A DNA stretch of 64,000 bases from Aurantiochytrium sp. KH105 (Eukaryota > Sar > Bigyra > Thraustochytrida > Thraustochytriidae): contig BGKB01000024.1 in assembly GCA_003116975.1 (NCBI GenBank), forward strand, positions 310,001-374,000. Reading direction: 5' to 3'. Position 1 is the stretch's first letter; each line of letters begins with the position of its first letter. The notes under the pieces are model-generated. The model was given only the letters and a program-made list of their open reading frames with translations. It was not told where the DNA came from and did not search any database. Positions 12,636 to 58,091 of the stretch are shown here, piece after piece. Position numbers and translations under genes: made by a program.

Positions 12636-12744
12636 GGACAGATCTCTGCGCCGCTCACGGGAACCTGCGCTCGTTACAAGGCCTCGGCAAGTAGCCTCAC
12701 GCAGCGGAGCAGGTGGTGAGTGAGTAAGACCTGCAAGAGTGAAG

Positions 12745-26758: not shown

Positions 26759-26959
26759 CGTGTCCCGGCAGCGGCCGGGAACCGCGCGTAAAGGTCAATT
26801 TAAAAGGTGTCTTGCGTCAAGAAGAAGAACGTTAGCAGCAGCAGCCTCGTTAGAGCTTCCTTTGCAGCAAAGCCGAGACCTAGCCCCGCCGGGGCGGAGC
26901 GGAGCAAACTCAAGCTCTGGAGGTGGTTCTTCGGGCCTGCGGGAGAGATCGTGGCCGCG
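26759..26959. promoter_or_regulatory. Bidirectional promoter region of coiled-coil and dynein genes
   Basis: Only 201 bases separate the outermost possible ATG codons (26758 on minus and 26960 on plus); 564 if the minus gene starts at 26395. A TTTAAAAG element at about 26799 could act as a TATA-like box for the dynein. Function is inferred from layout. Confidence 0.35.
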
Positions 26960-29900
26960 ATGGACTCCACGATCCTTCCCTATGGACGCCGAAGTAGCAA
27001 TCAAGAGGACGACGACCCTCGCGTCGAGACCACTCAAGTCGAGCCCGCCAAGTCGCCAAGGGGTCTTCTTCCCTCACCAGCAAGAAAGCTTGCGCTAGGA
27101 TTCGTGCCGCCCACGGCTGCATCACCGCGGCACGGGTCGCCGCGACGATGGTCGCCCATGAAGCAGCGTCGAGCCAAAGCACCGCAAACGCCCAAAACCA
27201 TCAAAGAACTCAATCTCCTTCAAATGAATGATCAGGACCTTGGTCTTGGGAATTTAGGCTCGCTTCCGCCCTTCAATGCTAGCTTCTCCCCAAGGCCCCC
27301 AACACAGAGCGCACGTACGTCCGGGACACGGGTATTGTCTGGCCCAAGTGGTGTTACGAGATTCGAGTCGGAACGAGGCGCCTTTTCCGCGAGAGGACGA
27401 TTCACCACCGAACCTTCCCAATCTTCGCCGCGGAGCCAGCGCGACGCTCACGAGTCTCCGCGTGCAAGACCGAAAATATCCGTGTCGGAACTGGGCAAGG
27501 CAGAAGGTATTGCTGAGTATGAGTTCACGCGAAATGTACAACGCTCGTTTCGCACAGGCGAGGACGCCGTTTCATTTTTCGCGCTACATGGAGCTAATAC
27601 ACCGCTCAAATTTGTGCATTTGAACCGCGCGCCTCAGGGAAAACGATTCAGACCTTATGATTTGGTTGTGGTGCAACCCGAGGACGTAGACCCAGAGCAC
27701 TTTACCATGTCGGCAGCAGGCGTCGTGCGTATTGCTCCGGGCGAGCCATCTGGTTTCACACCGTTATCCGAGTGGATGCGTTTGTCCACGACCTTTAATG
27801 TCATCTCTTCGATTCGTTTCTTCAAACACTACCTCGTCTTCAAAACATTCCATCTCTGGCGCTCGAGCATTCGATACAATTTGTACAATTTGCAGCGCAA
27901 AAAGCTGGCTCAGAGGCTCTTCCTTGCGAAAAAATCATTTTGCGAGCCACTTCTCGAAGTAAACAAGTTCATCGCCGATATGCATGACGTGACTCTTCTT
28001 GATCTGCGGTCGCAAAAGACGTACGAGGCAAACCATTTTGCAGATCACCAGACCCAGAAACGAACGCATGCCGCAAAAGAGCTGGAGCGCATGATGGAAA
28101 AGCTTCAGCACGTCGTTGAGCGAGTTTGCACGGAGGCCACGCGCAGAGCCAAGATCAGCAACGAAGCGTTTCAGAGCAGCATCAATGGCTCAAGCAATCC
28201 TCGCGAGCTCAAGTCGCGGTCGCTTGTCGCGCTGAAAAAGGAGCGCGCCGATCGCGTGCGAGCACTAAAGACAGCCATGCACGAAGCGTCAATGCTCGGC
28301 GACTTCATCCGTCTGGCCGACTACATGTGCGTCGAGAATCTTGTAAAGATGTGCCTTCGCTCGCATAAAAACATGCTCGACGAGCTCATGCGGACTTCGA
28401 GAAAGAACGGCATGTTTGAGACCGCGGTGCGCTTCACGCCAGAGCGCGAGCTGCAGTTTGTTCCCGACTGCGAGCGCATCTTGGCTCTTCTGGAGGACCT
28501 CAGTGCCTCCACTGTAAGGGCGGTGGGTTCCGTCCCGCGCATCATTTTTATTCGTCCCTTTAAGGGGATTGTGGCCCCTCTTATTGTCGACAGCCCTGAC
28601 GTGCGAAACCTCGTCGTGTCTTCAACATATTTCAACCATCTTCGCAGACGCATGGATGCCAAAGTCGACGCTGACTTCGCCGATGCACAAGAATACGCCG
28701 CCACCTTTGAGCAGCTCATGCCCATATTCGCCTACAACCAAGACTTCGACTTTGAGGCATACAAACATCGCCCCGAGCTCGAGCTCAGCACAATCAAGAA
28801 TGACATGGCGGTGCTTTCCGCCTGGGGAAAGGATTTGGAAAAGATGCGTGTGGGGAACACCGTCGGAATCCTCTATGTCGAGTCGCGCAAGCTTCGCGGC
28901 TCGCTCCACCCCATTATCGAGCGTGGCTTGGATCGCATGAAGTCTCTTCTCGCAGACTTGGCCCGTGAGAAATGCGGTACCCTTCTCGAGCACTATAAAC
29001 TTCGCATTCGCGAGCTCGATACACAGCCTGCCATTCTTCGCGAGTTCGCAGCACACGTCAAGTACGTGCAGCAGCTGAAAGTCGACACCCCAGAAATGCT
29101 GCGAAATTCCGCCACAGTTGAGGAGATGTACCGTCTCTGCAACACATATGGCGCACGGGTCTCGTCCGTCGATATGGTTCAGTTCGATGATCTCAAACAC
29201 TTTACAGAGACCTTTGCTACCAATCGAAAGGATGCGGAGATCTTTATTGCGTCCAAGCTGCCAGAAATGACGCAGACGCTCGACATGAATATTGCCAAGC
29301 TCGGAGACCAACTCGTTCAACTGCGTCAGCATATTCAGTCTGGGGTCCTTGTCAACCCAGACACAGAGCCCAAGATTGCTTTAGATGACCTCGAAGCCGT
29401 GCGTGCCAAGCTGGACCAATTTACGGATCTCAGCAAGACATACTCGCAGTACCAGGAGCTCTTCGGTATCCCCGTGTACGACTACAAGAACTTGCGCGAG
29501 ACTGAAGACGCCTACCAAGTTCAGTTCAATCTCTGGACCACCATCAAGACATGGATGGAGAAGACGTCCGCGTGGTATCATTGCGACTTTCTGCAGCTTG
29601 ACGTCGAGACCCTTGCGCAGGAGACGCAAATTGTGTTCAAGGATGCAAGCCTTGCCAACAAGCGCCTCGCGAATGCCGTGACACAACGCTTCCTCGACGC
29701 GTGCACTGATTTCAAGTCGCGAGTGCCCGTTGTGCTTGAGCTGGGCAATCCTTCTATGCGCCCGCGTCACTGGGAGCAGATTTTCACTGCGCTCGGGCAG
29801 CCGTGGTTCCCATCGAGCACATTTACACTCGACAATCTCACCGATTACGACATTTTTGGCAAGTCGGCCTTTGTCAGTGAAATTTCAGGCATTGCCTCGG

Positions 29901-32900
29901 GTGAGGCTGCGCTCGAGGCCTCGCTTGCAAAGATCAAACAGGCATGGGACGACTCGCGTTTCGAGCTCCTCCCCTACCGCGACGCCAAGAGCGTCTATAT
30001 CCTCGGTGGCCTTGAAGAGATCTTTACGTTGCTGGAGGACCACCAGGTCACTTTGCAGACGATGATGGGCTCTCGCTTTCTGCAGGGCGTCCGAACTGAG
30101 GTTGAAAGGTGGCAGCGCAAACTCTCGCTGCTTGCCGATACGCTCGACGAGTGGGTCGCTTGTCAGCGCAACTGGATGTACCTCGAGACCATTTTCTCAG
30201 CAGATGACATCCAGCAGCAGCTCCCCGAAGAGGCCGAAAAGTTTCAGATGGTGGATAGACTTTGGAAAGATGCTCTCCTTCGCACCAAAGAGGAACCCCT
30301 CGTGATCCACTGCATCTCTCGAAGCATGCTGCAGAGCGGTAAGGGGCCTTCAGCGCCCTCTGGCAAGCCTGGCGAGGGAAAAGACGGTGCCGCGGGAGAG
30401 AATCCCGAAGACAGCGATAAGCTTTTGCAACGTTTCGTGTATTGCAACCAATTGCTCGACGAGACGCAGAAATCGCTCGAAAACTATCTCGAGACAAAGC
30501 GGTCAGCCTTTCCGCGTTTCTACTTTTTGTCCAATGACGAGCTCTTGGAGATTTTGTCGCAAACGCGAGACCCTCACGCCGTTCAAGCGCATCTGGCCAA
30601 GTGCTTTGACTCGATGAAGTCGCTGCACTTCCAGCCCGAGTCCGAGGCGCCAGCTTCCGTGCCCAATCTCATTCTTGGAATGACCTCTGCCGAGGGCGAG
30701 TACGTCAAATTTGATGCCACGATTGATCCAAACGGGCGACCTGTCGAGTCTTGGCTTGCGTCGGTCGAAGAAGCCATGCGTGCAACCCTCTACACCCGCA
30801 CAAAGGATTGTCTCAAGGACTATAGTACGGTGTCACAAATCTCACGCCGCGAATGGATCTTTGCGCACGTTGCGCAGAGCGTTCTTGTGGTCGATCAAAT
30901 TCTCTGGACGCAGAATACTGCCGCGGCGCTGCGCGACAATGCCGTGGCGAATCATTACGAGTTTTCTTTGCAACAGATCGACGCTATGATTCAGATTGTA
31001 CGCGGGTCTCTCACAAAGCTTGAGCGCACCCTGGTGGGCGCCCTCATCGTTCTCGATGTGCACGCCCGCGATGTCGTCAATCAATTCCAGAAACAAGGAA
31101 TTGCCTCAACTTCGAATTTCGAGTGGACTCGCCAACTACGCTACTACTATGATGTTGACGTCGAGGATGTCATGGTGCGTCAGACAAACACTTCATTTCG
31201 ATACGCGTACGAGTACCTCGGCAACACGCCTCGCCTCGTGATTACACCGCTCACCGATTTGTGCTACATGACGTTAACCGGCGCGCTCCATTTGCGCTTC
31301 GGCGGAGCTCCTGCGGGCCCAGCTGGAACGGGAAAGACAGAGACCACCAAGGATCTCGCCAAGGCACTTGCTGTGCAATGCGTTGTATTCAATTGCTCCG
31401 ATGGTCTGGATTACAAGATCATGGGTCGATTCTTCTCCGGCCTGGCGCAGTGCGGCTCATGGAGCTGCTTCGACGAGTTCAATCGAATTGATATTGAGGT
31501 CCTCTCTGTCATCGCGCAGCAGATTCTCACCATTCAACAAGGCATCATTCACGACCAGACAGAAATTGACTTTGAGGGCAAGCGTATCCCACTGAATGCC
31601 AATTTTGGCGTCTTCATCACCATGAACCCAGGATATGCGGGCCGCACAGAGCTACCCGACAACTTGAAGGCTCTGTTTCGGCCCGTGGCAATGATGGTCC
31701 CGGATTACCGCCTCATTGCCGAGATCATTCTCTTTTCCGAAGGCTTCAGCAACGCGCTGCCGTTGAGCAATAAAATGACGCAGCTCTACAAGCTGAGCTC
31801 GGAGCAACTCAGCAAGCAGGACCACTACGATTTTGGAATGCGCGCCGTCAAGTCGGTCTTGGTTGCGGCCGGGAATTTGAAGCGCATGGAGCCTGACACG
31901 AGCGAGGACCTGCTTCTGATTCGCGCTATGCGGGACAGCAATGTGCCCAAGTTCCTCGAACACGATCTCGATCTCTTCAAGGGGATTCTCGGGGATCTTT
32001 TTCCTGGCCTGCAAGTACCCTTTGTGGACTATGGAGATTTGCAGGAGGCGATCGAGGCTGAAATTGTTCGTGAAGGCCTGTCTCCTGTCCCATCCTTTGT
32101 GCGAAAGGTCATTCAGGTGCACGAGACTCAGCTCGTGCGACATGGCATGATGCTTGTCGGTGAGACGGGTTCGGGGAAAACGACGAACGCTCGGATTCTT
32201 GCCAAGGCTCTGACTTCGCTCGCAAAGAGACGGGGACCCGATGCTCCGGAGGACGCCTTTATTCAGCAAGTGCAGCGCATAATTTTGAATCCCAAGTCCA
32301 TCACAGCAGGAGAGCTGTACGGCATGTTCAACGACCTCACGGGCGAGTGGAAAGACGGTCTAGTCCCGCACATTGTGCGATCTGTCATTCGGGAAGAATC
32401 TGGTCGCAAGTGGATCGTCTTCGATGGTCCCGTTGATGCCGTTTGGATTGAGAATATGAATACAGTGCTTGATGACAATAAGACGCTGTGTCTGGCAAAC
32501 TCTGAGCGTATTAAGATCCCATCCTCAGTGCACATGCTCTTTGAAGTGCAGGATCTCGCGGTTGCATCCCCAGCGACGGTGTCGCGGTGCGGTATGGTTT
32601 ACATGCAGCAGCTCCATATTGGCCAGGCGGCGCGCGTTGATGCGTGGGCCCGAAGCATTGGTCTCGAGGACATGATTCCATCCCAAGCTTCACGTCTGTG
32701 CAAGCTCATCAAAGAACGTCTTCCCGCAGGAATCGCGTTTGTTCGCCGCGAGTGCACCGTAAATATCCCGACGTCAGAAGCACACGTGCTTGCCAACTTT
32801 CTCAAGCTCATGACCTCTCTGCTTGCCTTCCAGGATGTAGTCGAGTCGCATGCTTCGCTCGAGCGGCTCGTCAACATGCTGTTTGTATTTTGTTTTGCTT

Positions 32901-35900
32901 GGTCCGTCGGAGCGGACATTGATGGCAAGGATCAAGCGCGATTTTCGGAATACACTATTCGAGAATTGGCCCCACTTCTCGACGGGGCTGGAAAAATGGA
33001 AAACGTGTTCAATTACTTTGTCGAGCCCTCGAGCGCAGCTTTCATTCCCTGGTCGCGTGCCGTACCTACATTTGAGTACCAAATGGCCACGCCGTACTTT
33101 GATCTGCTCGTGCCAACGCCGGAAACGACAAAGTACACGTATCTGCTTCGTCTCATGGCACTGAATAAGAACAATGCGCTAATCATGGGAGAGACGGGTG
33201 TTGGCAAGTCCGTCATCATCAGTCAATTTCTTCAGCGTATCTGCGCCGAGCAGGCCGTTATTCCTTCTTCGGGCGCCGGACTTCAGGATGGTGACCTGCA
33301 ATCAGGTCAATTGGGAAGCGAATCCACTAGTGATCGCAAGCCATCTCTGCACCGCGGCACGAGTCTTCGCTTCAGTCGTTTGCGCAACAACCGATCAAGC
33401 GAGTTCACGCACGCGATCATTAACTATTCTGCACAAACGCATCCGCACAACGTCTCGGAAATTCTCGAGGCCAACTTGGAAAAGAAGCGCAAAACACTGC
33501 TTGGCCCGCCCGGTGGGAAGCGAATGCTTCTTTTTGTCGACGATCTCAACATGCCCACGCTCGAGACATATGGCGCACAGCCGCCGAACGAGCTTCTCCG
33601 CCAGATCATCGACCAAGGCGGCTTCTACGACACCGAAAAATTGTTCTTCAAGTCCGTGCTTGATGTCAATATCATGGCAGCCTGCGCCCCACCCGGTGGC
33701 GGTCGTAGTCACGTACCAGCACGCCTGCTTCGTCACTTTAACACGCTCTGGATGCCGCAACTTGCAAGCTCTTCGCTCCAGTCGATCTTTGAAGCCATTC
33801 TTGGAGGTTTTCTCAATGCAGAGCTTCCGGTATACGCGGAGCTGGCAGCGCCGCTCGTGCGAGCGAGCATCACGGTGTACGAGAGTGTGCTCAAGGAGAT
33901 GCTCCCCACTCCAAGCAAGAGTCATTACACCTTTAATCTTCGTGATCTAAGCAAGGTCGTTCAAGGTGTTCTCATGGTGCGCGCTCCGGCATGTCAGGAC
34001 AGAAACACGCTGCTGCGTCTTTGGATGCACGAAGAAGCGCGTGTCTTTCGCGACCGCCTTCTTTGTGTGGAGGACAGGACCTGGTTTGACGAAACGTGCG
34101 CGGACGCCCTTCGAGCCTTTGTGACAGGATTGGAAGCTGCTACACCAGAAGGCTCCGAGCAAAGTGCGCTCGTGTTTGGTACCCTAAAGCAGCAGGATTC
34201 ACGCGCGTATGAGCTCGTTGCAAGCTCCTGGGAAGAGGTGACAGCTCTTGCGGGGCTTTTGACCGATCATCTCGATGAGTACAACATGACATTTCCAACA
34301 CGGATGGATCTGGTCTTTTTCCGCGACGCCATTCTTCACGTTGCAAGAATATGCCGCGTGCTCTCGCAGCCGCGCGGCAATGCTCTGTTGATCGGCGTGG
34401 GCGGCTCGGGTCGACAGAGTCTTACTCGTCTGGCCACTTTTATTTGCGGATATGCTTGCGAATCGATCGAGATGACACGAGGATACGGGCCTGCAGACTT
34501 CCACGAGAGCCTTCGGGGAATCTTGCTGCAGGCAGGCTGCGAAGAAAAGCATGTGACGTTTCTTTTCAGCGACACGCAGATCGCGCACGAGAGCTTTTTG
34601 GAGGATATCAACAATCTCCTCAACTCTGGCCAGGTTCCCAATCTCTTTGAGCCAGAGGACAGAGAGAAGATACTCAGCGCAATGCGCCCTATTGCAAAGG
34701 CCAAGGGGCGCTCCGAGGCCCGCGACGATTTGCTGGCACTCTTTACAGATCGCGTTCGGGAACAGCTGCATATCGTGCTTGCGTTTTCGCCAATCGGATC
34801 TGCTTTTCGTGCACGGTGCCGCAAATTTCCGTCTCTGGTAAACTGCTGTACAATTGACTGGTTTGATCCCTGGCCTCAAGACGCGCTCTACTCGGTGGCA
34901 CGGTTCTTTCTTATCCAAAACGATCGTGCGTTAGGTATTGAGGCGTATGTGGATCCGCTGTGCCAAATGTGCGTACACATTCACAAGTCTGTCGAAGAAG
35001 CGAGTGTCGCCTTTCAGGAAGAGATGGGCCGCTATAACTACACGACACCAACGTCATACCTGGAGCTGATCCGCGCATACAAATCGATGCTAGCGCAGCA
35101 GCGCGAGGCCGTGTCACAGCGACTCGCGCGGTATCAAAACGGACTCTCCAAGCTTAAAGAGACCGAGGAGGTGGTGGCAGGTCTACAGGAGACGCTCACA
35201 GATCTTGTCCCGAACCTTGAAAAGGCCCAAGCAGACACTTCTGCACTGCTCGAGCGCCTGGCCGCCGACCAAGAGGTTGCTGACGCTGCCAAGGAAGTGG
35301 CTACCAAGGACGAAGCCGTTGCTCAGGAGGTGGCAGCGGAAGTAAACAAGATCAAGGTTGAGTGTCAAACTGATCTCGACGAGGCCATGCCTGCGTACGA
35401 GTCAGCCGTTCAAGCGCTCGACCTTCTCGACAAGAAATCGATTCAGGAGGTCAAGTCCTTTGCGCAACCGCCAGAGCTCGTTGCATTCACAATGGAGGCC
35501 GTATGCATATTGCTTGGTGTGAAGCCGGATTGGTCGTCCGCAAAGAAGGTGCTCAACGATCTCAACTTTTTGCAGCGCCTCATCGACTTTGACAAGGACA
35601 ATATTGACCCCAAAAAGATCCGTAAGCTCGCCAAATATGTCAACGAGCCGGACTTTAATGCCGAAAAGATGAAGTCCGTCTCCAGCGCAGCCTGTTCTCT
35701 TTGCATGTGGGTGCATGCAATTGTCAAGTACGATTCTGTCTGCAAGAACATTGCACCGAAAAAAGCTAAACTCGCAGAGGCTGAAGCAAACCTTGCCACG
35801 GTGGAGAAGGAGCTCGCTCAGAAGCGCGAGAACCTGAGCGCCATTACGGCCAAGCTCGAGGCCCTGCAATTGCAGTATGACGAGAGTCTGCAAAACAAAA

Positions 35901-38900
35901 AGGACATCGAGGCCAAGGCACAAAATACAGAGGTTCAACTTGAGCGTGCGCAAAAACTAATCTACGGCCTCGCTGACGAAAAGGTACGCTGGACAGAGCT
36001 CGAGGCAACCTTGCAGGTTGATCTGAAGAATCTTGTGGGTAATATGATTCTCGCAACGGGCAGTATCGCCTACCTTGGGCCCTTCACGGCGAGCTTTCGC
36101 GCGCGTCTCGCAAAGGGCTGGGCGCAGCTTTGCCGCAAGAAGAACATTCCAGTGCAAAGCACGGAAGTTTCCGTCGAACGACTGCTTGCAGACCCGGTTG
36201 CGGTGCGTCAATGGCACATCGACGGTCTTCCTGCAGATCGCTTCTCGACAGAGAATGGCATCATTGCCACGAGCGCGCGGCGCTGGCCTCTTCTCATCGA
36301 TCCACAGGGCCAAGCCAACAAGTGGGTTCGCAACACGTATGCGCAGCGAGGTGATGGCGGGCCAGGAAAGGACGCGAACGAACTGCAGGTTATCAAGCTC
36401 TCCAATAGCGACTTTTTGCGTTCGCTCGAGAACGCAGTGCGTTTCGGGAGCCCGGTGCTCCTGGAGAACGTTGGCGAGACACTCGACGCAACGCTCGAAC
36501 CCATTCTGCTCAAACAGACCTTTAAACGGGCTGGCCAACTTATGCTTCGCATTGGGGACAGCGACGTTCCTTACTCGGAGGACTTTAAGCTCTTTATCAC
36601 GACCAAGCTGCCTAATCCGCACTACATGCCCGAAGTCATGGTCAAGGTGACGGTCATCAACTTCACTGTGACGCTTTCAGGACTCGAAGACCAGCTACTG
36701 GTGGACGTTGTGCGTTGCGAACGCCCTGACCTGGAGCAAAAAAACGACGAGCTCGTGGTGTCCATTGCCAATGACAAGCGCGCGCTCAAAGATATTGAGG
36801 ACAAGATTCTCCAAATGCTCGCGAACTCGTCAGGAAATATTCTCGATGACGAAGAGCTCATCGAGGAGCTCGGCAAGTCCAAAATCACCTCGCAAGCAAT
36901 TTCAGCCCGCATGGACGAAACAGCTCTGACGACGGAGGAGATCAACGCTGCAAGAAATGTTTACCGACCCGTGGCGAAGAGAGGGTCCGTATTGTACTTT
37001 GTGATTGCATCTCTTCCGGCCATAGACCCGATGTACCAGTTTTCACTACAGTACTTTTCCAAGCTGTTTGTACTCGTTATCGAGTCCGCGGAGCAGGAGT
37101 CTGACGTTGCTCGGCGCATTCTTCAGCTTCTCGACGTCATTACGGCAAAGGTGTATGCCAACATTTGCCGTGGCTTGTTTGAGCGGGACAAGCTTGTCTT
37201 CAGCTTCAAGATGGCCGTGGAGATTTGGCGCAATGACGGGCGCATTCCCGAAGTGGAGTGGCGTCAATTTCTTATGGGCTGTCTTGAGCCAGAAAGCGGA
37301 TCAGCTGCAGGAACACAAGAAAGCGCCGCGGATCCACCCGAGTATCTTCCAGACAAGCGGGTTTGGGTGGAGCTCTGTGCATGTGATGCGCAGATGCCTG
37401 CCTTCACGGGCCTGCTTGCTTCAATGCAACATGAAAACGATGGCGCGGCCTGGGCCGACTGGTGCGAGGCGGAGAGTCCGCATGAATGCGAGCTTCCGGG
37501 CGACTGGGAGTCGCAGGTGAGCCCATTCCAGCGGTTGCTGCTTGTTCGTGCCTTGCGAAAGGAGAAATTACGGGCTGCGACCTGGCACTTTGTGGCCAAA
37601 GCGCTGGGACCTTCGTACGCTGACTCGCCACCATTCGATCTCCACGGCGCTTACGCCGACTCAACCGCCGTGACACCGATCATTTTCATTCTCTCGCCTG
37701 GAGCAGATATCAATGACTACTTTTTAGAGATCGCTCGAGAGTGCGGCAAGAGTGGCGCGAGAACAAAGATGATCTCGCTGGGTCAAGGGCAAGGGCCTAT
37801 TGCAGAGAGACTCATTGTGGAAGGCCGCGAAACAGGTGACTGGGTATGTCTTCAAAACTGCCATTTGGCAGTGTCCTGGCTTTCGCGCCTCGAGCAATTG
37901 CTCGAAGCTGTAGATCCGCAACAAGTGCACCCAGAACATCGTTTGTGGCTCACTTCTGATCCGAGTCCAAAGTTCCCGGTGGCTGTCTTGCAGAATGGTA
38001 TCAAGATCACCAATGAGCCCCCCCGCGGTCTTCGGGCAAACATGGCGCGCAGCTTTGCCGACCTCAGCGCCGACGAGTACATTGCTGGTTCGCCCACTTG
38101 GAAGCGTCTGCTATACGGCCTCGTCTTTTACAACGCGCTCATTCTAGAGCGTCGCAAATTTGGTGCTGTTGGGTGGAACATACCGTATGGATGGATGAAC
38201 TCGGACATGAAAACGGCCATGATGCAGCTCAAGCTGTACCTTGCCGAGAGCGACTCGAATGGGGATGAGATCCCATTCCAGACTTTGCTCACTATGGTGG
38301 GCGACGTGACGTACGGAGGTCGCATCACGGACCGAATGGACCAGCGTACGAACCGTTCTATCCTCATGCAATTTTTCAATCCTGAAATTCTTGCTGATGG
38401 CTACTCGCTTGTGGGAGACGCCGAGGGAATAAAATCCGCGCCGTCATCTTCATCGGTGCATCAGCCTGGTGTGTACGAAGTCAAAGCAGGCGAATCGCTC
38501 GAGATCGTCCAGTCGGCAATTGCCAATCTTCCTTCCACGGACCGACCTCCTCTCTTTGGACTGCACAGCAACGCGGATATTACCTTTCAGCAAAACGAGA
38601 CGAACGAGATGCTCGCAACGCTGATTGCCTCTCAAGTTGACGATGGCGAGGCAGGCACGAGCGGGTCCGGAGATAATGATGATCTTGAGGAGGCAGAGAC
38701 TTCGGATCTTCAACCGACGGGGCAGGAAGACGGAATGGAGGCCGGCGCAGAAAGCGACAATGAGGTCGTGGCGCGTCTGGCAGGGCAGATCCTTGAGCGT
38801 GTGCAGCGCATGCCGCACCTCTCGCGAGATGACCCTAATGCCTCTCCGGAGACCTTTGCGCTTCTCGATGGACGAGTCAACTCCCTGGGTGTCTTTCTTC

Positions 38901-39697
38901 ACCAGGAGATGACTCGCTTTGAGCATTTGCGGGCATGTGTGGAGTCTTCTTTGCAGGAACTCGACAAGGCTACACGTGGACTGGTGGTTATGTCGGCAGA
39001 GCTCGAGGACATGTTCCAGCGGCTTTTGTATCAGCGTGTCCCTGCTTCCTGGCATGCAGCGGGTTATCCGTGTCTTAAGCCTTTGGGAAGCTGGACGAAC
39101 GACTTTCTCGCAAGGCTTGACTTTTGCCACTGCTGGCTTACGCAGGGACCGCCAACCTCGTACTGGATCTCGTCATTCTTCTTCCCACAGGGATTTATTA
39201 CGTCTGTCTTGCAGATGCATGTGCGCAAGACACAGACGCCGATCGACGTTCTAACCATCCGCACGCACCTGACGGCTATTGGATGCGGGTCTGACGTTAC
39301 TGGCAGCCCTAGTCTTGCAGGCGTACGAGCGCCCAAGCACGGTGTTTACATTCATGGTCTCTTTATGCAGGGTGCCCGCTTTGACGCGGAGAGGTCGATG
39401 GCGATTCAGGAGTCGTTCCCGAAGGCTCTCTTTGACGAAATGCCACTCATCAATTTGGCCCCCTCACGAACTGACGTGGCGGAGGATGAAGAGGAAAAGG
39501 AACAAGCTGCAGGTCTTGAGACAAGAAAAGAATTCACCTACAGCTGTCCTTTGTACAAGACCTCATTGCGTGCGGGAACGCTCTCCACCACAGGCCACTC
39601 CACCAATTTTGTCATTGCGCTGGACATTCCATCACAAGTGGACCCAAATCACTGGGTGCGCCGGGGCGTTGCGCTCTTGACGATGCTAGACGACTAG
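26960..39697 (+). CDS. Axonemal inner-arm dynein heavy chain
   Basis: Microtubule minus-end motor of flagellar inner arms. The frame is open from a GTG at 26807; the first ATG is at 26960, giving 4245 aa in one exon. P-loops: AAA1 GPAGTGKT at residues 1453-1460, AAA2 GETGSGKT at 1734, AAA3 GETGVGKS at 2077, AAA4 GVGGSGRQS at 2479. Between AAA4 and AAA5 lies the coiled-coil stalk with the microtubule-binding tip (about 2700-3010). AAA1 flanks (VVFNCSDGLDYKIMGRFFSG, FDEFNRI) and the C-terminal LSTTGHSTNFVIA segment are typical of the monomeric DNAH1/3/6/7/12 group; the closest member cannot be decided by eye. An acidic stretch (GDNDDLEEAETSD ... AGAESDNE) sits after the QQNETNEMLATL segment, where relatives have a short Gly-rich loop. 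Confidence 0.95.
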   Translation: MDSTILPYGRRSSNQEDDDPRVETTQVEPAKSPRGLLPSPARKLALGFVPPTAASPRHGSPRRWSPMKQRRAKAPQTPKTIKELNLLQMNDQDLGLGNLGSLPPFNASFSPRPPTQSARTSGTRVLSGPSGVTRFESERGAFSARGRFTTEPSQSSPRSQRDAHESPRARPKISVSELGKAEGIAEYEFTRNVQRSFRTGEDAVSFFALHGANTPLKFVHLNRAPQGKRFRPYDLVVVQPEDVDPEHFTMSAAGVVRIAPGEPSGFTPLSEWMRLSTTFNVISSIRFFKHYLVFKTFHLWRSSIRYNLYNLQRKKLAQRLFLAKKSFCEPLLEVNKFIADMHDVTLLDLRSQKTYEANHFADHQTQKRTHAAKELERMMEKLQHVVERVCTEATRRAKISNEAFQSSINGSSNPRELKSRSLVALKKERADRVRALKTAMHEASMLGDFIRLADYMCVENLVKMCLRSHKNMLDELMRTSRKNGMFETAVRFTPERELQFVPDCERILALLEDLSASTVRAVGSVPRIIFIRPFKGIVAPLIVDSPDVRNLVVSSTYFNHLRRRMDAKVDADFADAQEYAATFEQLMPIFAYNQDFDFEAYKHRPELELSTIKNDMAVLSAWGKDLEKMRVGNTVGILYVESRKLRGSLHPIIERGLDRMKSLLADLAREKCGTLLEHYKLRIRELDTQPAILREFAAHVKYVQQLKVDTPEMLRNSATVEEMYRLCNTYGARVSSVDMVQFDDLKHFTETFATNRKDAEIFIASKLPEMTQTLDMNIAKLGDQLVQLRQHIQSGVLVNPDTEPKIALDDLEAVRAKLDQFTDLSKTYSQYQELFGIPVYDYKNLRETEDAYQVQFNLWTTIKTWMEKTSAWYHCDFLQLDVETLAQETQIVFKDASLANKRLANAVTQRFLDACTDFKSRVPVVLELGNPSMRPRHWEQIFTALGQPWFPSSTFTLDNLTDYDIFGKSAFVSEISGIASGEAALEASLAKIKQAWDDSRFELLPYRDAKSVYILGGLEEIFTLLEDHQVTLQTMMGSRFLQGVRTEVERWQRKLSLLADTLDEWVACQRNWMYLETIFSADDIQQQLPEEAEKFQMVDRLWKDALLRTKEEPLVIHCISRSMLQSGKGPSAPSGKPGEGKDGAAGENPEDSDKLLQRFVYCNQLLDETQKSLENYLETKRSAFPRFYFLSNDELLEILSQTRDPHAVQAHLAKCFDSMKSLHFQPESEAPASVPNLILGMTSAEGEYVKFDATIDPNGRPVESWLASVEEAMRATLYTRTKDCLKDYSTVSQISRREWIFAHVAQSVLVVDQILWTQNTAAALRDNAVANHYEFSLQQIDAMIQIVRGSLTKLERTLVGALIVLDVHARDVVNQFQKQGIASTSNFEWTRQLRYYYDVDVEDVMVRQTNTSFRYAYEYLGNTPRLVITPLTDLCYMTLTGALHLRFGGAPAGPAGTGKTETTKDLAKALAVQCVVFNCSDGLDYKIMGRFFSGLAQCGSWSCFDEFNRIDIEVLSVIAQQILTIQQGIIHDQTEIDFEGKRIPLNANFGVFITMNPGYAGRTELPDNLKALFRPVAMMVPDYRLIAEIILFSEGFSNALPLSNKMTQLYKLSSEQLSKQDHYDFGMRAVKSVLVAAGNLKRMEPDTSEDLLLIRAMRDSNVPKFLEHDLDLFKGILGDLFPGLQVPFVDYGDLQEAIEAEIVREGLSPVPSFVRKVIQVHETQLVRHGMMLVGETGSGKTTNARILAKALTSLAKRRGPDAPEDAFIQQVQRIILNPKSITAGELYGMFNDLTGEWKDGLVPHIVRSVIREESGRKWIVFDGPVDAVWIENMNTVLDDNKTLCLANSERIKIPSSVHMLFEVQDLAVASPATVSRCGMVYMQQLHIGQAARVDAWARSIGLEDMIPSQASRLCKLIKERLPAGIAFVRRECTVNIPTSEAHVLANFLKLMTSLLAFQDVVESHASLERLVNMLFVFCFAWSVGADIDGKDQARFSEYTIRELAPLLDGAGKMENVFNYFVEPSSAAFIPWSRAVPTFEYQMATPYFDLLVPTPETTKYTYLLRLMALNKNNALIMGETGVGKSVIISQFLQRICAEQAVIPSSGAGLQDGDLQSGQLGSESTSDRKPSLHRGTSLRFSRLRNNRSSEFTHAIINYSAQTHPHNVSEILEANLEKKRKTLLGPPGGKRMLLFVDDLNMPTLETYGAQPPNELLRQIIDQGGFYDTEKLFFKSVLDVNIMAACAPPGGGRSHVPARLLRHFNTLWMPQLASSSLQSIFEAILGGFLNAELPVYAELAAPLVRASITVYESVLKEMLPTPSKSHYTFNLRDLSKVVQGVLMVRAPACQDRNTLLRLWMHEEARVFRDRLLCVEDRTWFDETCADALRAFVTGLEAATPEGSEQSALVFGTLKQQDSRAYELVASSWEEVTALAGLLTDHLDEYNMTFPTRMDLVFFRDAILHVARICRVLSQPRGNALLIGVGGSGRQSLTRLATFICGYACESIEMTRGYGPADFHESLRGILLQAGCEEKHVTFLFSDTQIAHESFLEDINNLLNSGQVPNLFEPEDREKILSAMRPIAKAKGRSEARDDLLALFTDRVREQLHIVLAFSPIGSAFRARCRKFPSLVNCCTIDWFDPWPQDALYSVARFFLIQNDRALGIEAYVDPLCQMCVHIHKSVEEASVAFQEEMGRYNYTTPTSYLELIRAYKSMLAQQREAVSQRLARYQNGLSKLKETEEVVAGLQETLTDLVPNLEKAQADTSALLERLAADQEVADAAKEVATKDEAVAQEVAAEVNKIKVECQTDLDEAMPAYESAVQALDLLDKKSIQEVKSFAQPPELVAFTMEAVCILLGVKPDWSSAKKVLNDLNFLQRLIDFDKDNIDPKKIRKLAKYVNEPDFNAEKMKSVSSAACSLCMWVHAIVKYDSVCKNIAPKKAKLAEAEANLATVEKELAQKRENLSAITAKLEALQLQYDESLQNKKDIEAKAQNTEVQLERAQKLIYGLADEKVRWTELEATLQVDLKNLVGNMILATGSIAYLGPFTASFRARLAKGWAQLCRKKNIPVQSTEVSVERLLADPVAVRQWHIDGLPADRFSTENGIIATSARRWPLLIDPQGQANKWVRNTYAQRGDGGPGKDANELQVIKLSNSDFLRSLENAVRFGSPVLLENVGETLDATLEPILLKQTFKRAGQLMLRIGDSDVPYSEDFKLFITTKLPNPHYMPEVMVKVTVINFTVTLSGLEDQLLVDVVRCERPDLEQKNDELVVSIANDKRALKDIEDKILQMLANSSGNILDDEELIEELGKSKITSQAISARMDETALTTEEINAARNVYRPVAKRGSVLYFVIASLPAIDPMYQFSLQYFSKLFVLVIESAEQESDVARRILQLLDVITAKVYANICRGLFERDKLVFSFKMAVEIWRNDGRIPEVEWRQFLMGCLEPESGSAAGTQESAADPPEYLPDKRVWVELCACDAQMPAFTGLLASMQHENDGAAWADWCEAESPHECELPGDWESQVSPFQRLLLVRALRKEKLRAATWHFVAKALGPSYADSPPFDLHGAYADSTAVTPIIFILSPGADINDYFLEIARECGKSGARTKMISLGQGQGPIAERLIVEGRETGDWVCLQNCHLAVSWLSRLEQLLEAVDPQQVHPEHRLWLTSDPSPKFPVAVLQNGIKITNEPPRGLRANMARSFADLSADEYIAGSPTWKRLLYGLVFYNALILERRKFGAVGWNIPYGWMNSDMKTAMMQLKLYLAESDSNGDEIPFQTLLTMVGDVTYGGRITDRMDQRTNRSILMQFFNPEILADGYSLVGDAEGIKSAPSSSSVHQPGVYEVKAGESLEIVQSAIANLPSTDRPPLFGLHSNADITFQQNETNEMLATLIASQVDDGEAGTSGSGDNDDLEEAETSDLQPTGQEDGMEAGAESDNEVVARLAGQILERVQRMPHLSRDDPNASPETFALLDGRVNSLGVFLHQEMTRFEHLRACVESSLQELDKATRGLVVMSAELEDMFQRLLYQRVPASWHAAGYPCLKPLGSWTNDFLARLDFCHCWLTQGPPTSYWISSFFFPQGFITSVLQMHVRKTQTPIDVLTIRTHLTAIGCGSDVTGSPSLAGVRAPKHGVYIHGLFMQGARFDAERSMAIQESFPKALFDEMPLINLAPSRTDVAEDEEEKEQAAGLETRKEFTYSCPLYKTSLRAGTLSTTGHSTNFVIALDIPSQVDPNHWVRRGVALLTMLDD

Positions 39698-39959: not shown

Positions 39960-42755
39960 CTATGCGAGGACCTCTCGAATAGACTTGGCCACGTGTGCGG
40001 CCTCAGGGAGATGCAAGACACAGGGTTTGCCAAGGGGGGCCGCGCACTCAAACGTTGAACGAGGTGCGGGGTTCTCTCCTGTGAAAACGTGGGTCCAATT
40101 TCCTTCTGGAATGTAGCATGGACGTGAAAACTTGTTCGCGCTAAATACAGGACACACGAGAAGGTTCGAACCAAGCAGAAACTGGTCGTGCGCCTTGCGT
40201 GCGCGAAGGTCATGAGGAAATTCCAAAAACAGATGCCGCGCCAAGGGGGCACCCGTTCTGTAGGCCAGCTGCATGAGAGGCTTCTTCACCAGCGCGAAGA
40301 GCTCGCGGTGCAGACGGGCAAATCGCGCAAAGTGATCAATGACTTCCGGATCGACAGCCTGCGCAGAAATGTCAGGAAGCACGCCTTCATGCGTTCGGAA
40401 GACTGCATCGGAAAAGACATTCATTTCAGCCCAGCGCATAAAGAGTTCTGGAGAGCGCTTGACGCGAATCACGCCAAAGCGGTCAAACATTGTATACCCG
40501 CCAATGTCGCTGTGCGAGAGACTGAAGCCAGAAAAGCCAGCAGAGAGAACACCCGTGAGAGCGCTGCGCATGCCGTCGTGGTGATCAAAGGTTGTCATTT
40601 GGTCTCCCATCCACATGAGCGTGCTGGCGCCTGGCGAACGGCCGCCAGCAGCACGCATGAAGAAGACAGCATTTTCTGCTAAAAAGTCGTTGGCCTCAAT
40701 CGCCTTGCGGCAGGTCTTGGCCCAAAGCACGGGGAATTCGTTGTGCATTGAGCTTGCATCGCCCGAGTGCAGCGTCGCATCGAGCGGAAGAGATTCGGCG
40801 AAGTCAGCCATAAAGCCCATAACGCCATGCACGTTATTGAAGCCGTCCGAGGCGCGAAACATGCGCTTGAGGATGACTTGGTCAACATACCAATCCTGGC
40901 AGCGCGGATTTGTGAGATCAATGGTGGCAAAGGTGAAATCTGGTGTGGCGCTGGCCTGGATCTGCACAGAGTGACCGTCGGCATTCTTGATGAGGCAGTT
41001 CTCTGCCAGAGCCTCCTGATAGAGCGTGACGCTCTCGTTTGAGGCGCCGCCCGTATTGGCAAGGTAGGCGTTGATGTACGAGAGGACGTAGATCTGGTCA
41101 TCTGCGAGTTCGCGAAGGAGAAGGTCCCATCCCGGATAGTGGGCGTGAGAGACCTCCCAGTTCCACTGCAAACGACGACCAAAGTCCGTCTCGCGCTTCC
41201 CGGTCCAGTCCTGGAGCCAAAGCGCCGCGAGCGGAACATGAGCGGCTTTGAGCGTTGCGACATGGTTGCGAACTTTTTTCGTCCCTCCTTGAAGCCCGAG
41301 AATTGCGCCATTGCCGACCCAGTCGGGAAGGGGGCGCATGCGACCAGCGTGCTCGCGCGTGTACGTTTCAATGATTTTAAGTGGCGAGCTCCGCACCACA
41401 AAGGCGCCTTCGACACTTGAAGCATTGACCTCGACTGTGATGGCGTCGGGACGGGTCAGGTCGAAGAGCGCAAAATCTGTCGTGGAAAGATACATGGAGC
41501 GCATGGCGCTTGTGAGGTAAAAGGGGGCCGGCGCATAGGAAGTTTGCCAGCTCCCTGCAGCACGCTTTACAAAGAAGTTGACCAAGTAGGAAATGGGCTG
41601 AAGACCGCGCCCAATGCCTTGTTCCTGCGTGAAGATTGGCACGCACCCTCCCTTCATGTCCGTGTACGAATACTGGATTCCAAAACCGTAGACACTTTCT
41701 GCTGCGGATGACTGATGCCGAATATAGGCTCGGCGAAGGGGTACATTACGCGCAGAACCGTTTACTTTGCTTTCACTGGCAAGGGCTCGCGCGGAAAAAG
41801 AAATGTGATCAGAACCGGATGCCTCGAGACGAAATTCGTACGGGATTTCAGCCGATGCAGCAACGTCCACTTTGCCCTTCGTGTCTTTGTCATCATGACT
41901 CTGCTGGGAATGTGCAAAGACGAGAACGCCCCGAACGCTCACTGTGAGGTCTGTGGAGCGCTCGATGGCGTCGATGGTTTGACGTACACTAAGGTCACGC
42001 GCGAGGTCCTGGAAAGCGTAAAGCCCCATTTCTTCATCATTGGGTGCCGCGAAGGATCCTTGTCGGGCGCCCACGAAGAAAGCCTCGGACGGCAGATTGG
42101 CAAATACACTACGACGCGCAGGCCCGGCGGTCAGCTCCAGCGTACCACGTGCAGCGTCGACCTGGAGTTGGAAGGCGCCGAGCTCGAGTGTTGTACTTTC
42201 AACGCGAATTTCGAGGTCGCTCGGCGTTTGGAGCTGAGCAAAGCACTGCGCGTCCGAAGCCGAGGTCTGGAAGACAAAGGCAAGGATTCCGATTGCCAAC
42301 ACGACAGCTGCATAGTTGTGCGAGGCATCACGGCATCCGCCCTGGTCATCATCCCGGTCAGCACGCTTGGATTGCGGCGCCGCAGCTGCTGCGAGGAGCG
42401 CACACGAGAGGCCCATGCAGGCGGTGGACATGTGGATGGCGTTGAGAGAGAGCGTAAAGTCTGGGTCCACCGCAATGGATGCAAGAACGCCTGCACAGAG
42501 CCCTGTCGTGGAGATTGTGCCCGCAAGTTTGAAGGCATGGGACGCGATGAGTCCTGCGCTCAGCACGGCGCTGACAAAGAGCATTGTCACTGCGAGCACA
42601 GCGCTTATTGACACCATTTCGATGGCCTCGTGCGGGTACACGGCCAGGCCTACCATGTTGTGAAGCACGAAAATATGGTCGAGCAGGCCGCCTCCGAAGC
42701 AGAGTGCTGCCGACGCCGCGCACGTAGCAGCGGCCAAGGACCTGAGCGGCGCCAT
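39960..42755 (-). CDS. GH31 glycosidase, candidate sulfoquinovosidase, with N-terminal membrane region
   Basis: Candidate alpha-sulfoquinovosidase: releases sulfoquinovose from sulfoquinovosyl glycerides. The frame starts at a TTG (42959); the ATG at 42755 gives 931 aa. Residues about 1-185 hold some five hydrophobic segments (e.g. SISAVLAVTMLFVSAVLSAG, YAAVVLAIGILAFVFQ); the GH31 domain follows. The nucleophile is Asp651 (GFMADFAE) and the acid/base Asp718 (MGDQM). The residues that bind sulfonate in E. coli YihQ (Arg301, Trp304, Tyr508) correspond to Arg528, Trp531 (GRRLQWNW) and Tyr754 (SDIGGY). Spacing agrees: Arg to Trp 3, nucleophile to acid/base 67, acid/base to Tyr 36, as in YihQ from memory. 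An ordinary alpha-glucosidase would lack this set. Membrane topology and substrate are inferred. Confidence 0.88.
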   Translation of the reverse strand: MAPLRSLAAATCAASAALCFGGGLLDHIFVLHNMVGLAVYPHEAIEMVSISAVLAVTMLFVSAVLSAGLIASHAFKLAGTISTTGLCAGVLASIAVDPDFTLSLNAIHMSTACMGLSCALLAAAAAPQSKRADRDDDQGGCRDASHNYAAVVLAIGILAFVFQTSASDAQCFAQLQTPSDLEIRVESTTLELGAFQLQVDAARGTLELTAGPARRSVFANLPSEAFFVGARQGSFAAPNDEEMGLYAFQDLARDLSVRQTIDAIERSTDLTVSVRGVLVFAHSQQSHDDKDTKGKVDVAASAEIPYEFRLEASGSDHISFSARALASESKVNGSARNVPLRRAYIRHQSSAAESVYGFGIQYSYTDMKGGCVPIFTQEQGIGRGLQPISYLVNFFVKRAAGSWQTSYAPAPFYLTSAMRSMYLSTTDFALFDLTRPDAITVEVNASSVEGAFVVRSSPLKIIETYTREHAGRMRPLPDWVGNGAILGLQGGTKKVRNHVATLKAAHVPLAALWLQDWTGKRETDFGRRLQWNWEVSHAHYPGWDLLLRELADDQIYVLSYINAYLANTGGASNESVTLYQEALAENCLIKNADGHSVQIQASATPDFTFATIDLTNPRCQDWYVDQVILKRMFRASDGFNNVHGVMGFMADFAESLPLDATLHSGDASSMHNEFPVLWAKTCRKAIEANDFLAENAVFFMRAAGGRSPGASTLMWMGDQMTTFDHHDGMRSALTGVLSAGFSGFSLSHSDIGGYTMFDRFGVIRVKRSPELFMRWAEMNVFSDAVFRTHEGVLPDISAQAVDPEVIDHFARFARLHRELFALVKKPLMQLAYRTGAPLARHLFLEFPHDLRARKAHDQFLLGSNLLVCPVFSANKFSRPCYIPEGNWTHVFTGENPAPRSTFECAAPLGKPCVLHLPEAAHVAKSIREVLA

Positions 42756-45771: not shown

Positions 45772-47697
45772 CTAAGAAGAGCACGAAAAGAAGGCAACGC
45801 CTGGCTTGCGACGATGGCTCTCGGGCACACGTCGGTAGTAGGCGGCCTCGAGATCCGGATGTTCGTCGTACGGCGTCTCAAACAGCTTTTGCATGGTGCG
45901 AAACGGGCCGTAGTCCTTGTTTTCGGCAGCTTCGTAAGCTTCCTTGAGCATCCATTCGCGCGGCACGTACTTGGGATTGTTGGCACGCATGGTGGCGAGA
46001 CGCTTTTCTTCGGACATGTCAATGTCGGCATGGACCAGGACGAGCCACTGCGTAGCCCAGTTCTCGAGAGCCTTGCGCTGCTCCGCATCGAGAGGCTCGT
46101 ACGCGGCACGCTCTTCGAGCATGGCGACGAGGTCCGGAGCATTCTGGCGACTGATGACATCGTTTGTGACATTCGAGAGCTCGCGGAAGAAAATCGTGTA
46201 GTCCATGTTGATGAGTGCCGGGTAGAGTGGCTGCCACAAATCCTTTTCAAGGCTCTCCTCGTCGTCGCCAGGGCGAGCACTGGCACTGAGGCCGAGCTTG
46301 GCACGAATCATGGCGTTGCGTTCCTCCGCAAGCATGGCTGGGTACCCGTCGCGCACAATCTCCTTGGCGCGAGCCAGGACATCAGGGTCACCCTCCTCCA
46401 AAAGAGGGGTAATGGCCTGAGCAAAAGTGGCGACATTGACCTGAGCGGCAACGCGTTGGCGCTCAAAGCCGAACTTGCGATCCGGGTCACTCGTGAACGG
46501 GGTCCACAGCGGGTGGTACGACTCGATGAAACCAAAGGGGCCATAGTCCATCGTGAGTCCGCTCAGAAGACAGTTGTCTGAGTTCATGTTTCCTTGCACG
46601 TAGCCAACCCGGTTCCAGGCGGTGGCGAGGTGCGCTTGGCGCCGGGCGAGGACCGCGAGCATATCCACGAGGACTTCGGGCCAGCCAGACTTGATGCGAG
46701 GGACCAGGTTGGGAAATTCAATGCGGATGCAATGCTTGAGAAACTTTTCGAGGCCTTCCTTGGCACCCTCCTCGCCGCGCGCAAGTCGGCGCATGTAGAG
46801 TTCCGCTTGGCCGACGCGCAGAAACGAACTGGCGGCACGGCATGTGATCGCGCATCGTTCCTTGCGCATGGTATCGGGAGGGAAATCGTAGTTGGAGGCC
46901 GGGACGGTATCCCGGTACCAGGCACGCGGCACGGTCTCGACTTCCGAGGCAACGAGGGAAACGGCGCGAGTGGTTGGCACCCCCAAATGGTGCATGGCCT
47001 CGGAAACGAGGAACTCGCGGACGCTGGAGCGCAGGACGGCGCGACCATCAAAGTTACGAGCAAACGGCGTGGGTCCGCATCCCTTGAGTTGAAGCTCCCA
47101 GCGTGCGCCATCGGCGCCCACGTACTCGCCAATCGAGCATGCGCGGCCATCGCCGTAGCCCTTGCCGTTGAAAGGGTCGGGCGACTCGATGGGTTGACCA
47201 AAGACAGAGACGGCGTACGGCGTGCACCAGGAGTCGACGCCCTTGGTGTCTGCCGAAAAGAGGTCGAGAAAGTCCTCGCTGTCGATCATTTCCTGCGAGA
47301 GGCCGAGGCGCTCGCTCATGTCCTCGGAGATGGCGATGCGGTATGGCTGGTGGAGCGGGGTCGGTTCAATGCGCACATAGTGGCCCTTTTCTACGGGTCG
47401 GGACTCTCTGTTGGGGAAGAGCTCGCGTTCGCGCGGGTCTGCGTCCAGGTCTCTGAGCAGCGAGTTCTCGCGGCGGCCCAGAAAGGGTCCCAGCACGCCC
47501 TTGGTGATGGCGGCGTCGTCCTCGGCCGCCATTTGGTGGAGCAGCGTGGCCACCCCTCGCTTCGGCACGATCTCCGGCGCGGGCGGCGCCGCGAGCGAGG
47601 CCTGCGTCCTCTTCTGCGCCTTTGCTCCCCGCTCGTGAGGCTGTACGCTGCGCAGCTGCCTTCCGAGTCGAGCAAGGCGGTCTGCCTGTCGCGACAT
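45772..47697 (-). CDS. SELENOO: SelO/YdiU pseudokinase (protein AMPylase), Cys form
   Basis: Mitochondrial or bacterial-type protein AMP-transferase with a kinase fold that binds ATP in flipped orientation (known for SelO). 641 aa from an ATG. Family segments are plain: WELQLKGCGPTPFARNFDGRA with the catalytic Lys, VGYVQGNMNSDN, and LTMDYGPFGF with the metal-binding Asp. The Arg/Gln-rich start (MSRQADRLARLGRQLRSV) could be a mitochondrial presequence. The C-terminus ends SCSS followed by TAG: the third residue from the end is Cys where animal SelO has selenocysteine, so this is a Cys homologue. One exon. Confidence 0.94.
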   Translation of the reverse strand: MSRQADRLARLGRQLRSVQPHERGAKAQKRTQASLAAPPAPEIVPKRGVATLLHQMAAEDDAAITKGVLGPFLGRRENSLLRDLDADPRERELFPNRESRPVEKGHYVRIEPTPLHQPYRIAISEDMSERLGLSQEMIDSEDFLDLFSADTKGVDSWCTPYAVSVFGQPIESPDPFNGKGYGDGRACSIGEYVGADGARWELQLKGCGPTPFARNFDGRAVLRSSVREFLVSEAMHHLGVPTTRAVSLVASEVETVPRAWYRDTVPASNYDFPPDTMRKERCAITCRAASSFLRVGQAELYMRRLARGEEGAKEGLEKFLKHCIRIEFPNLVPRIKSGWPEVLVDMLAVLARRQAHLATAWNRVGYVQGNMNSDNCLLSGLTMDYGPFGFIESYHPLWTPFTSDPDRKFGFERQRVAAQVNVATFAQAITPLLEEGDPDVLARAKEIVRDGYPAMLAEERNAMIRAKLGLSASARPGDDEESLEKDLWQPLYPALINMDYTIFFRELSNVTNDVISRQNAPDLVAMLEERAAYEPLDAEQRKALENWATQWLVLVHADIDMSEEKRLATMRANNPKYVPREWMLKEAYEAAENKDYGPFRTMQKLFETPYDEHPDLEAAYYRRVPESHRRKPGVAFFSCSS

Positions 47698-57524: not shown

Positions 57525-58091
57525 TACTTCTGACTTCGCGTCTACTTGTATTCCCGGTCATGCCTGCTCCGTCCTCGGACCCCGTCGCCAGCGGCCTCTA
57601 ATGCCTGAAACAACAATGTAGGCGCGCACTGCTTCAATGCGAATGCCTTTTTTATTTTTTTCTTCAGAAATGTAGTATAAAATTGCTACTGGCTGCTTAG
57701 TCGCGCCGCATCGCAGCCCACTTCGCGCTGCACTGCAGCCCACTCCAACGCCGCCATCGGACCTCACTTCCTGAAAAGCAGCGCCATATTTCGCTGCTTT
57801 CGATGGCTTTTCTTTTTAGTGATTATGAAATACTTTGTTCATTGCGCGTGCGTCTTCAAGTTCTTGCTGAAATCCTTCAGGACCAAAGCATGTTACTGAC
57901 AGGCCCCAGACTTTTCACATGTCAATCTCAACTCGAAAACGATTCGTTTGACCGATACTAACGTAGTGGTAGTACACACCTTGGAAAACATAAAAACTAA
58001 AAGTGACACGAGACGAGCGCTCTCAGGTTTCAGGTTTCAGGTCTGGCTGGAGGCAAAAGAAGAACTCGGCTCAGCGCTGCCGCCAAGGCAG
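57525..58091. other. Intergenic region upstream of the ANK-FN3 gene
   Basis: About 570 bases, T/A-richer than the genes. The downstream gene's frame is open back to a TTG at 57948, but has no ATG. No separate gene seen. Confidence 0.5.

Follow-up and report, generated by a model that had tools for sequence, protein, structure and literature searches.

The window studied here is a stretch of 64,000 nucleotides from the thraustochytrid Aurantiochytrium sp. KH105 (contig BGKB01000024.1, positions 310,001 to 374,000, assembly GCA_003116975.1), and the subject of this report is a gene of its minus strand, referred to as gene A (39960..42755, stop codon included), which encodes a 931-residue, probably membrane-anchored protein resembling the sulfoquinovosidases of glycoside hydrolase family 31 (GH31). 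The gene is a single unbroken frame of 931 codons that runs from an ATG at 42755 to a stop at 39960-39962 with no internal stop. The frame stays open further 5' up to a TTG (999 codons in all). Because this extension diverges strongly between the two copies of the gene present in the assembly, while their alignment holds from the ATG on, translation probably begins at the ATG of position 42755. The two copies, on the contig of the window (C24) and on a second one (C13, L011), are 96% identical, and the tail of a dynein heavy chain gene adjoins both. Within the GH31 part they differ by 46 synonymous and 22 non-synonymous changes, and the ratio of non-synonymous to synonymous substitution rates (dN/dS) of 0.14 points to purifying selection. 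The GC content at third codon positions (GC3) of gene A is 0.625, that of seven other genes of the window ranging from 0.60 to 0.83. In the whole assembly (76.0 Mb, 367 contigs), GH31 barrels occur at at least 10 places that fall into five pairs, as might be expected of an assembly holding two haplotypes.

The catalytic part of A (residues 180-931, 39963..42218) is composed of an N-terminal beta domain, a (beta/alpha)8 barrel and C-terminal domains, as judged from a structural model (m2a060ad80845) and its Foldseek matches. It belongs to GH31 by its TIM barrel (PF01055, residues 492-816, 40308..41282; 105.7 bits for a cut-off of 23.5) and by its GH31 C-terminal domain (PF21365, residues 835-909, 40029..40253; 59.4 bits for a cut-off of 24.4). 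The NCBIfam model of YihQ (NF007746, cut-off 553) gave 581.2 bits with A and 581.5 bits with its second copy. In a sequence search of the PDB, the top six distinct sequences all came from the four solved sulfoquinovosidases, namely AtSQase, BmSQase (8r56), YihQ and SftG of E. rectale (6pnr), with E values from 4e-97 to 4e-93. The next GH31 enzyme, YicI, followed about 69 orders of magnitude behind (E 7e-24), and MYORG and glucosidase II were matched over part of the length at 4e-13 and 5e-10. The AlphaFold2 model of A, built from 46 sequences, has a mean predicted local distance difference test score (pLDDT) of 81, and in the catalytic part most blocks of ten residues score 90 or higher; values are low in the first 170 residues. 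When it was compared with the PDB by Foldseek, the first 23 chains were all sulfoquinovosidases, representing the same four enzymes, at target template modelling (TM) scores of 0.91-0.94; the other GH31 proteins among the 50 matches listed reached 0.69 at most.

Alignment to YihQ of E. coli K-12 revealed that all seven active-site positions are identical in A. They comprise Gln489 (YihQ Gln262; 41289..41291), Gln515 (Gln288; 41211..41213), the sulfonate-binding position Arg528 (Arg301; 41172..41174), Trp531 (Trp304; 41163..41165), the nucleophile position Asp651 (Asp405; 40803..40805), the acid/base position Asp718 (Asp472; 40602..40604) and Tyr754 (Tyr508; 40494..40496), all on the minus strand. 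A preliminary description of this DNA had already paired both aspartates and the Arg-Trp-Tyr set with their YihQ counterparts and pointed to three equal intervals (3, 67 and 36 residues); the alignment bears this out and adds the two glutamines. Five of the six intervals between the seven positions are in fact equal, the first two being 26 (YihQ 262-288) and 13 (288-301), and the remaining one, 304-405, is 19 residues longer in A. In YihQ, Arg301, Trp304 and Tyr508 bind the sulfonate, and the two variants of the pocket, with Gln262 and Gln288 or with Lys and Glu in their place, are called QQRWY and KERWY. The variant with Lys and Glu at the two glutamine positions, the K-E variant, was encountered in L095, L096 and eight loci from one further bacterial sample. 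Two other GH31 types of the same genome have both aspartates and an Arg aligned at 301, without the two Gln, the Trp and the Tyr. Given this difference, the NF007746 score and the PDB ranking, the YihQ-like residue set of A exceeds what chance would bring about.

Ahead of the catalytic part lies a membrane region. Five hydrophobic segments were delineated at a 19-residue Kyte-Doolittle mean of at least 1.5: residues 7-25 (42681..42737), 47-65 (42561..42617), 78-96 (42468..42524), 107-125 (42381..42437) and 149-167 (42255..42311), the last one preceding the catalytic part. The count of about five given in the preliminary description is thus correct, and the structural model contains five long helices in this region, at low confidence. 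The successive loops carry 1, 0, 1, 0 and 4 Lys and Arg residues in A and 1, 0, 1, 1 and 4 in its second copy, which amounts to six on the presumed cytosolic loops versus none on the others, and to six versus one in the second copy. Positively charged loops face the cytosol according to the positive-inside rule. The N-terminus of A is therefore predicted to be cytosolic and its catalytic domain extracytoplasmic, facing either the cell exterior or a compartment lumen. Four N-glycosylation sequons are present in A, all of them within the catalytic part. A Pfam search of the N-terminal region with E values up to 10 returned nothing over cut-off in A or in the two paralogues described below.

Two further GH31 genes of the genome are paralogues of gene A, and a first quick tree united the three as one clade with a support of 100. 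Paralogue B (C87/C30, 979 amino acids) has all seven YihQ residues. In paralogue C (C126/C111, L009/L010, 1148 amino acids), Gly, Arg, Ser and Leu replace Gln, Gln, Arg and Trp, and Glu occupies the acid/base position, while the column of Tyr508 holds Tyr in one alignment and Val in another. Between copies, dN/dS of the GH31 part is 0.175 in B, over 878 aligned codons with one copy running into a stretch of N, and 0.26 in C. As this value is found in spite of replaced pocket and acid/base residues, paralogue C is likely a maintained pseudoenzyme.

With modest confidence, we favour the reading that A is an extracytoplasmic, membrane-tethered GH31 hydrolase of sulfoquinovosyl lipids or sulfoquinovosyl glycerol, in other words a protein with sulfoquinovosidase activity; its topology, substrate, cellular site and role are what we infer from sequence and structural comparison. 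The product of gene A would be a retaining alpha-glycosidase of the sulfoquinovosidase type, anchored by five membrane spans. In a retaining double displacement on an alpha-sulfoquinovoside, the nucleophile attacking the anomeric carbon would be Asp651, and the acid/base would be Asp718. Binding of the sugar with its sulfonate group would fall, as in YihQ, to Arg528, Trp531 and Tyr754, along with Gln489 and Gln515. Probable substrates would be sulfoquinovosyl glycerol or sulfoquinovosyl diacylglycerol of algal or plant debris, yielding sulfoquinovose and glycerol or diacylglycerol. All 23 YihQ-clade rows compared have Arg at position 301, so that A and B, with the same Arg, carry what one would expect of a sulfonate-binding site. 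Of the membrane-bound sulfoquinovosidase put forward in the preliminary description, what stands is a sulfoquinovosidase-type GH31 domain with its full seven-residue set, preceded by a membrane region and encoded by a eukaryotic genome that shows thraustochytrid-like features; its place in the trees and the search for pathway genes, whose negatives are weak, lend it no support.

The observations that weigh against this reading concern the proteins themselves, their bacterial relatives, their place in the trees and the rest of the genome. In the first 175 residues of A, the two copies differ by 14 non-synonymous and 3 synonymous changes (dN/dS 1.6), so that conservation of the membrane region is unproven. 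The count of five spans is firm for A only: at a stricter threshold B has three segments and C four, at a looser one each has five before the GH31 part, and the catalytic parts of B and C hold stretches as hydrophobic as their weakest N-terminal segments. Moreover, B (456 bits) stays below the NF007746 cut-off of 553 in spite of its complete residue set, as does C (283 bits).

The bacterial relatives were collected in one scan of genome contigs, from which the best 80 of 171 relatives were retained; a scan of viral contigs gave 67 pattern matches and no relative. Twenty-five of the 80 loci, including the 23 best BLAST scores, form a group that we call clade II (L015-L036, L038, L039, L064), distinct from the YihQ clade. 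A strong N-terminal hydrophobic segment is found in 15 of 23 clade II rows versus 0 of 56 YihQ-clade rows, a count that omits L018 and L030, whose starts are cut by the contig. Five more rows have a lipobox or twin-Arg pattern, these patterns being given for clade II only, and no bacterial N-terminus of clade II has more than one hydrophobic segment. The earlier statement that bacterial sulfoquinovosidases are soluble is therefore valid for the YihQ clade and fails for the nearest bacterial relatives of A. Homologues of the E. coli yih genes flank 36 of 55 YihQ-clade loci versus none of the 25 clade II loci, with the E. coli yih proteins as sole queries; since 19 of the 55 YihQ-clade loci also lack a match, this absence is weak evidence. 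Two alphaproteobacterial genes of the K-E type sit in apparent sulfoquinovose operons. A survey of clade II gene context (Pfam domains of 20 chosen neighbours at 11 loci) was too scattered to be used: it showed a sulfatase adjacent to L015, a TauD-family protein adjacent to L032 and, in the vicinity of L016, a sulfate permease, and the other neighbours sampled have functions without visible link to sulfoquinovose. To our knowledge, clade II has neither an assigned function nor a member whose activity has been measured.

Position 301 was followed in additional bacterial samples of 398, 396, 282 and 395 genomes, of which 16, 17, 40 and 1 matched at E 1e-60; these figures include the centre genomes, known beforehand to match, and the single match of the last sample is its centre. 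From the set of 40 matching genomes 20 loci were used, and lower-scoring matches lie outside the counts for this position. Arg was observed in 23 of 23 rows of the YihQ clade, five of them of the K-E variant, as opposed to 7 of 50 bacterial clade II rows, the other 43 having Gln. Trp304 is kept in all 50 clade II rows and Tyr508 in 44. Identity of A is 33-37% to YihQ-clade rows and 35-44% to clade II rows. Several relatives depart from these patterns. One metagenome-assembled genome (MAG) of Actinobacteria holds both an Arg301 copy (L015) and a Gln301 copy (L023). L143, L144 and L147 display His-Glu-Arg-Trp-Trp at five pocket positions, unlike both known variants, and L148-L153 have Ala at the position of Gln262 and WNQTW or WTQTW where others show WLQDW. 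Finally, the contig that holds the clade II locus L064 is attributed to a Klebsiella pneumoniae MAG, probably through a binning error.

Trees were computed on 47 of 88 aligned sequences (first quick tree), on 46 rows (second quick tree and a further tree, called here the 46-row tree) and on 75 of 102 sequences, the sequences omitted from the last being presumed duplicates, thinned near relatives, the distant L129-L132 and YicI. As the first quick tree gave signs of a long-branch meeting of B with C, the later trees were built without paralogue C and the two distant GH31 genes. Apart from YicI, which serves as outgroup in both trees of 46 rows, YihQ is the only characterised enzyme that the trees contain; AtSQase, SftG and BmSQase are not part of them. 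All four trees place A outside the YihQ clade, where it joins or borders clade II, which excludes A as a simple YihQ orthologue. In the 46-row tree, support is 99/97 for the YihQ clade and 96/98 for clade II with A and B (26 rows), and clade II has a support of 93 in both quick trees. In the 75-row tree, whose bootstrap is not fully settled, clade II with A and B (52 rows) reaches 100/100 with L128 as the first branch, and A and B lie in an unresolved fork near its base. Forcing A and B to join the YihQ clade costs 17.1 log units in the smaller tree and 3.4 in the larger, and the approximately unbiased (AU) test does not reject this placement (p 0.112 and 0.098). Of 31 columns in which the two clades differ, A agrees with clade II in 18, with the YihQ clade in 5 and with neither in 8, and B agrees with clade II in 16 and with the YihQ clade in 2.

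By tree position and separating columns, A and B thus go with clade II, and they differ from it in having Arg instead of the usual Gln at 301. They would represent an early branch with a background nearer clade II and the YihQ-clade Arg at the sulfonate position. The states at position 301 require four changes in the 75-row tree and five in the smaller one; that Arg301 was retained rather than regained would fit the existence of early Arg-bearing branches (L128, and L026 with L143, L144 and L147). According to the preliminary description, a grouping with alpha-glucosidases lacking the Arg-Trp-Tyr set would have refuted a sulfoquinovosidase. The neighbouring clade mostly has Gln301, yet it keeps the Trp and, mostly, the Tyr. 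Because A and B retain Arg301 and a YihQ-side placement is not rejected by the AU test, this grouping lowers the claim without refuting it.

The genome was also searched for sulfoquinovose catabolism genes, whose presence the preliminary description had proposed to check. Whole-genome six-frame searches, which were run without positive control and can miss split genes, gave no match for YihS, YihT or a SmoC-like monooxygenase. PF07221 had no match either, and 2 of 14 control genomes were positive; as E. coli, which has YihS, is not among these, the model may not see YihS at all. With YihV as a query, matches over longer alignments had only 31-34% identity, as any sugar kinase might. These are weak negatives. 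To the extent that they hold, the organism may profit from the lipid or glycerol moiety more than from the sulfo-sugar: should A be a sulfoquinovosidase, the sugar that it releases may undergo export, enter another route, or be less valuable than the glycerol or diacylglycerol set free with it.

The same observations can be read differently. A and B may be membrane-tethered clade II alpha-glycosidases with another substrate, for example a 6-O-sulfated or 6-substituted sugar of a cell-surface polysaccharide, in which case the YihQ-like pocket would be a shared ancestral frame. This would agree with their tree position and with a clade that is mostly exported, has no yih neighbours, and keeps Trp304 and mostly Tyr508 while swapping Arg301 for Gln. 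The kinase-like matches as the only sulfoquinovose pathway candidates of the genome would also be in line with it, weak as these negatives are, and two sulfatase genes are present in the same window. Nevertheless, the Arg301 of A and B is that of every YihQ-clade row, and the alternative substrate is left unnamed, with no known clade II activity to draw on. We consider this explanation possible and rather doubtful. It is unlikely, in our view, that A is a glycosidase of the secretory pathway that trims the organism's own glycans, placed like glucosidase II or MYORG and without nutritional role. The predicted anchor, a lumenal or extracellular catalytic domain with sequons, and five pairs of GH31 genes as a lower bound would suit such an enzyme; nevertheless, another GH31 gene of the genome (L001) reads by eye as glucosidase II-like, and MYORG and glucosidase II are far weaker, partial matches to A.

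A bacterial contaminant or a very recently acquired bacterial gene is highly improbable. It is true that the closest sequences in the collections searched, none of which was eukaryotic, are bacterial. Such an origin was nevertheless dismissed in view of the dynein tail that accompanies the gene on both of its contigs, of a GC3 inside the range of the window together with the existence of three paralogues, and of a multi-segment N-terminus where bacterial clade II proteins have at most one segment. Returning to A as a tethered sulfoquinovosidase, a wider picture can be drawn, which we put forward as speculation. A, B and C may form a surface system of three multi-span proteins for scavenging sulfolipids, with A and B as active sulfoquinovosidases outside the cytosol and the dead C as a partner or sensor. 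They would then stand for an early branch of the sulfoquinovosidase lineage, which bacteria mostly switched to another substrate through the replacement of Arg301 by Gln, and would include the first eukaryotic GH31 sulfoquinovosidase as far as searched.

Elsewhere in the window, two tandem sulfatase genes (PF00884, 149 and 167 bits) are found on the plus strand at 10644-12326 and 12739-14400, about 26 kb from gene A. The dynein heavy chain is encoded by an intron-free frame of 4296 amino acids with Pfam dynein motor domains (26807-39697, plus strand). On the other side of gene A lie a gene for a SelO protein adenylyltransferase (45772-47697, minus strand, 251 bits) and a frame in which ankyrin repeats precede fibronectin type III domains (57948-61136, plus strand). 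The genome also contains a set resembling a polyunsaturated fatty acid (PUFA) synthase. A PfaA-like frame scores 930 bits, under the model cut-off of 1010. The model also picks out a second frame, at a distance of about 5 kb and in the opposite orientation, and a third one, similar to the PfaA C-terminus, is located on another contig. The PfaA model also matches 11 of the 14 control genomes, none of them over cut-off. A divergent arrangement of PUFA-synthase genes is a thraustochytrid trait, and the set makes a thraustochytrid plausible, as support short of proof.

Degradation of sulfoquinovose has been detected in plants and algae, the eukaryotic enzymes being described as still unknown (PMC9594981). 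Another article states that no eukaryotic sulfoquinovose pathway has been characterised and mentions GH188 in marine algae (PMC12890257). Passages of a third report eukaryotic members of GH188 and are silent on eukaryotic GH31 sulfoquinovosidases (PMC10755693). Glycoside hydrolase totals of thraustochytrid genomes have been published in an article whose main text does not contain the term GH31 (PMC6050695). Among the matches listed for open-licence titles and abstract beginnings, a scope that excludes subscription journals and database annotations, none reported a eukaryotic GH31 sulfoquinovosidase. Some animal genomes may carry proteins automatically named sulfoquinovosidase-like. Within the searched material, what would be new about A is its occurrence in a eukaryote, its anchor of several spans and its place in the trees; in its chemistry it would equal YihQ. 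Gene A offers a candidate, open to testing, for the eukaryotic enzymes of sulfolipid degradation that are yet to be identified: since a eukaryotic protein has the full YihQ active site, expressing a single domain and assaying it on a chromogenic substrate would address the question. In addition, the substrate of clade II, where Arg301 is mostly Gln, would tell how a sulfonate pocket is gained or lost.

Four known groups can be set beside A. With the sulfoquinovosidases of the YihQ type (YihQ, AtSQase, SftG and BmSQase), it shares the GH31 fold at TM scores of 0.91-0.94, both catalytic aspartates, the Arg301/Trp304/Tyr508 set and the glutamines 262 and 288. It departs from them by its five-segment N-terminus, its predicted extracytoplasmic site, its eukaryotic host, its position outside the YihQ clade and the lack of any pathway gene found. 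Clade II is closest to A by tree and separating columns, most of its rows have an N-terminal export signal or anchor, and it has Trp304 and mostly Tyr508; unlike A and B, it has Gln301 in 43 of 50 rows, and its bacterial signal or anchor is a single segment at most. MYORG and glucosidase II have the GH31 barrel and the lumenal or extracellular placement that is predicted for A, whereas they match its sequence weakly and in part, and the glucosidase II-like protein encoded in this genome has other pocket residues. Finally, the NAD-dependent sulfoquinovosidases of GH188 (SqgA), of which eukaryotic members are reported in passages of PMC10755693, would reach the same reaction outcome as the one proposed for A, although they belong to an unrelated family with an unrelated mechanism.

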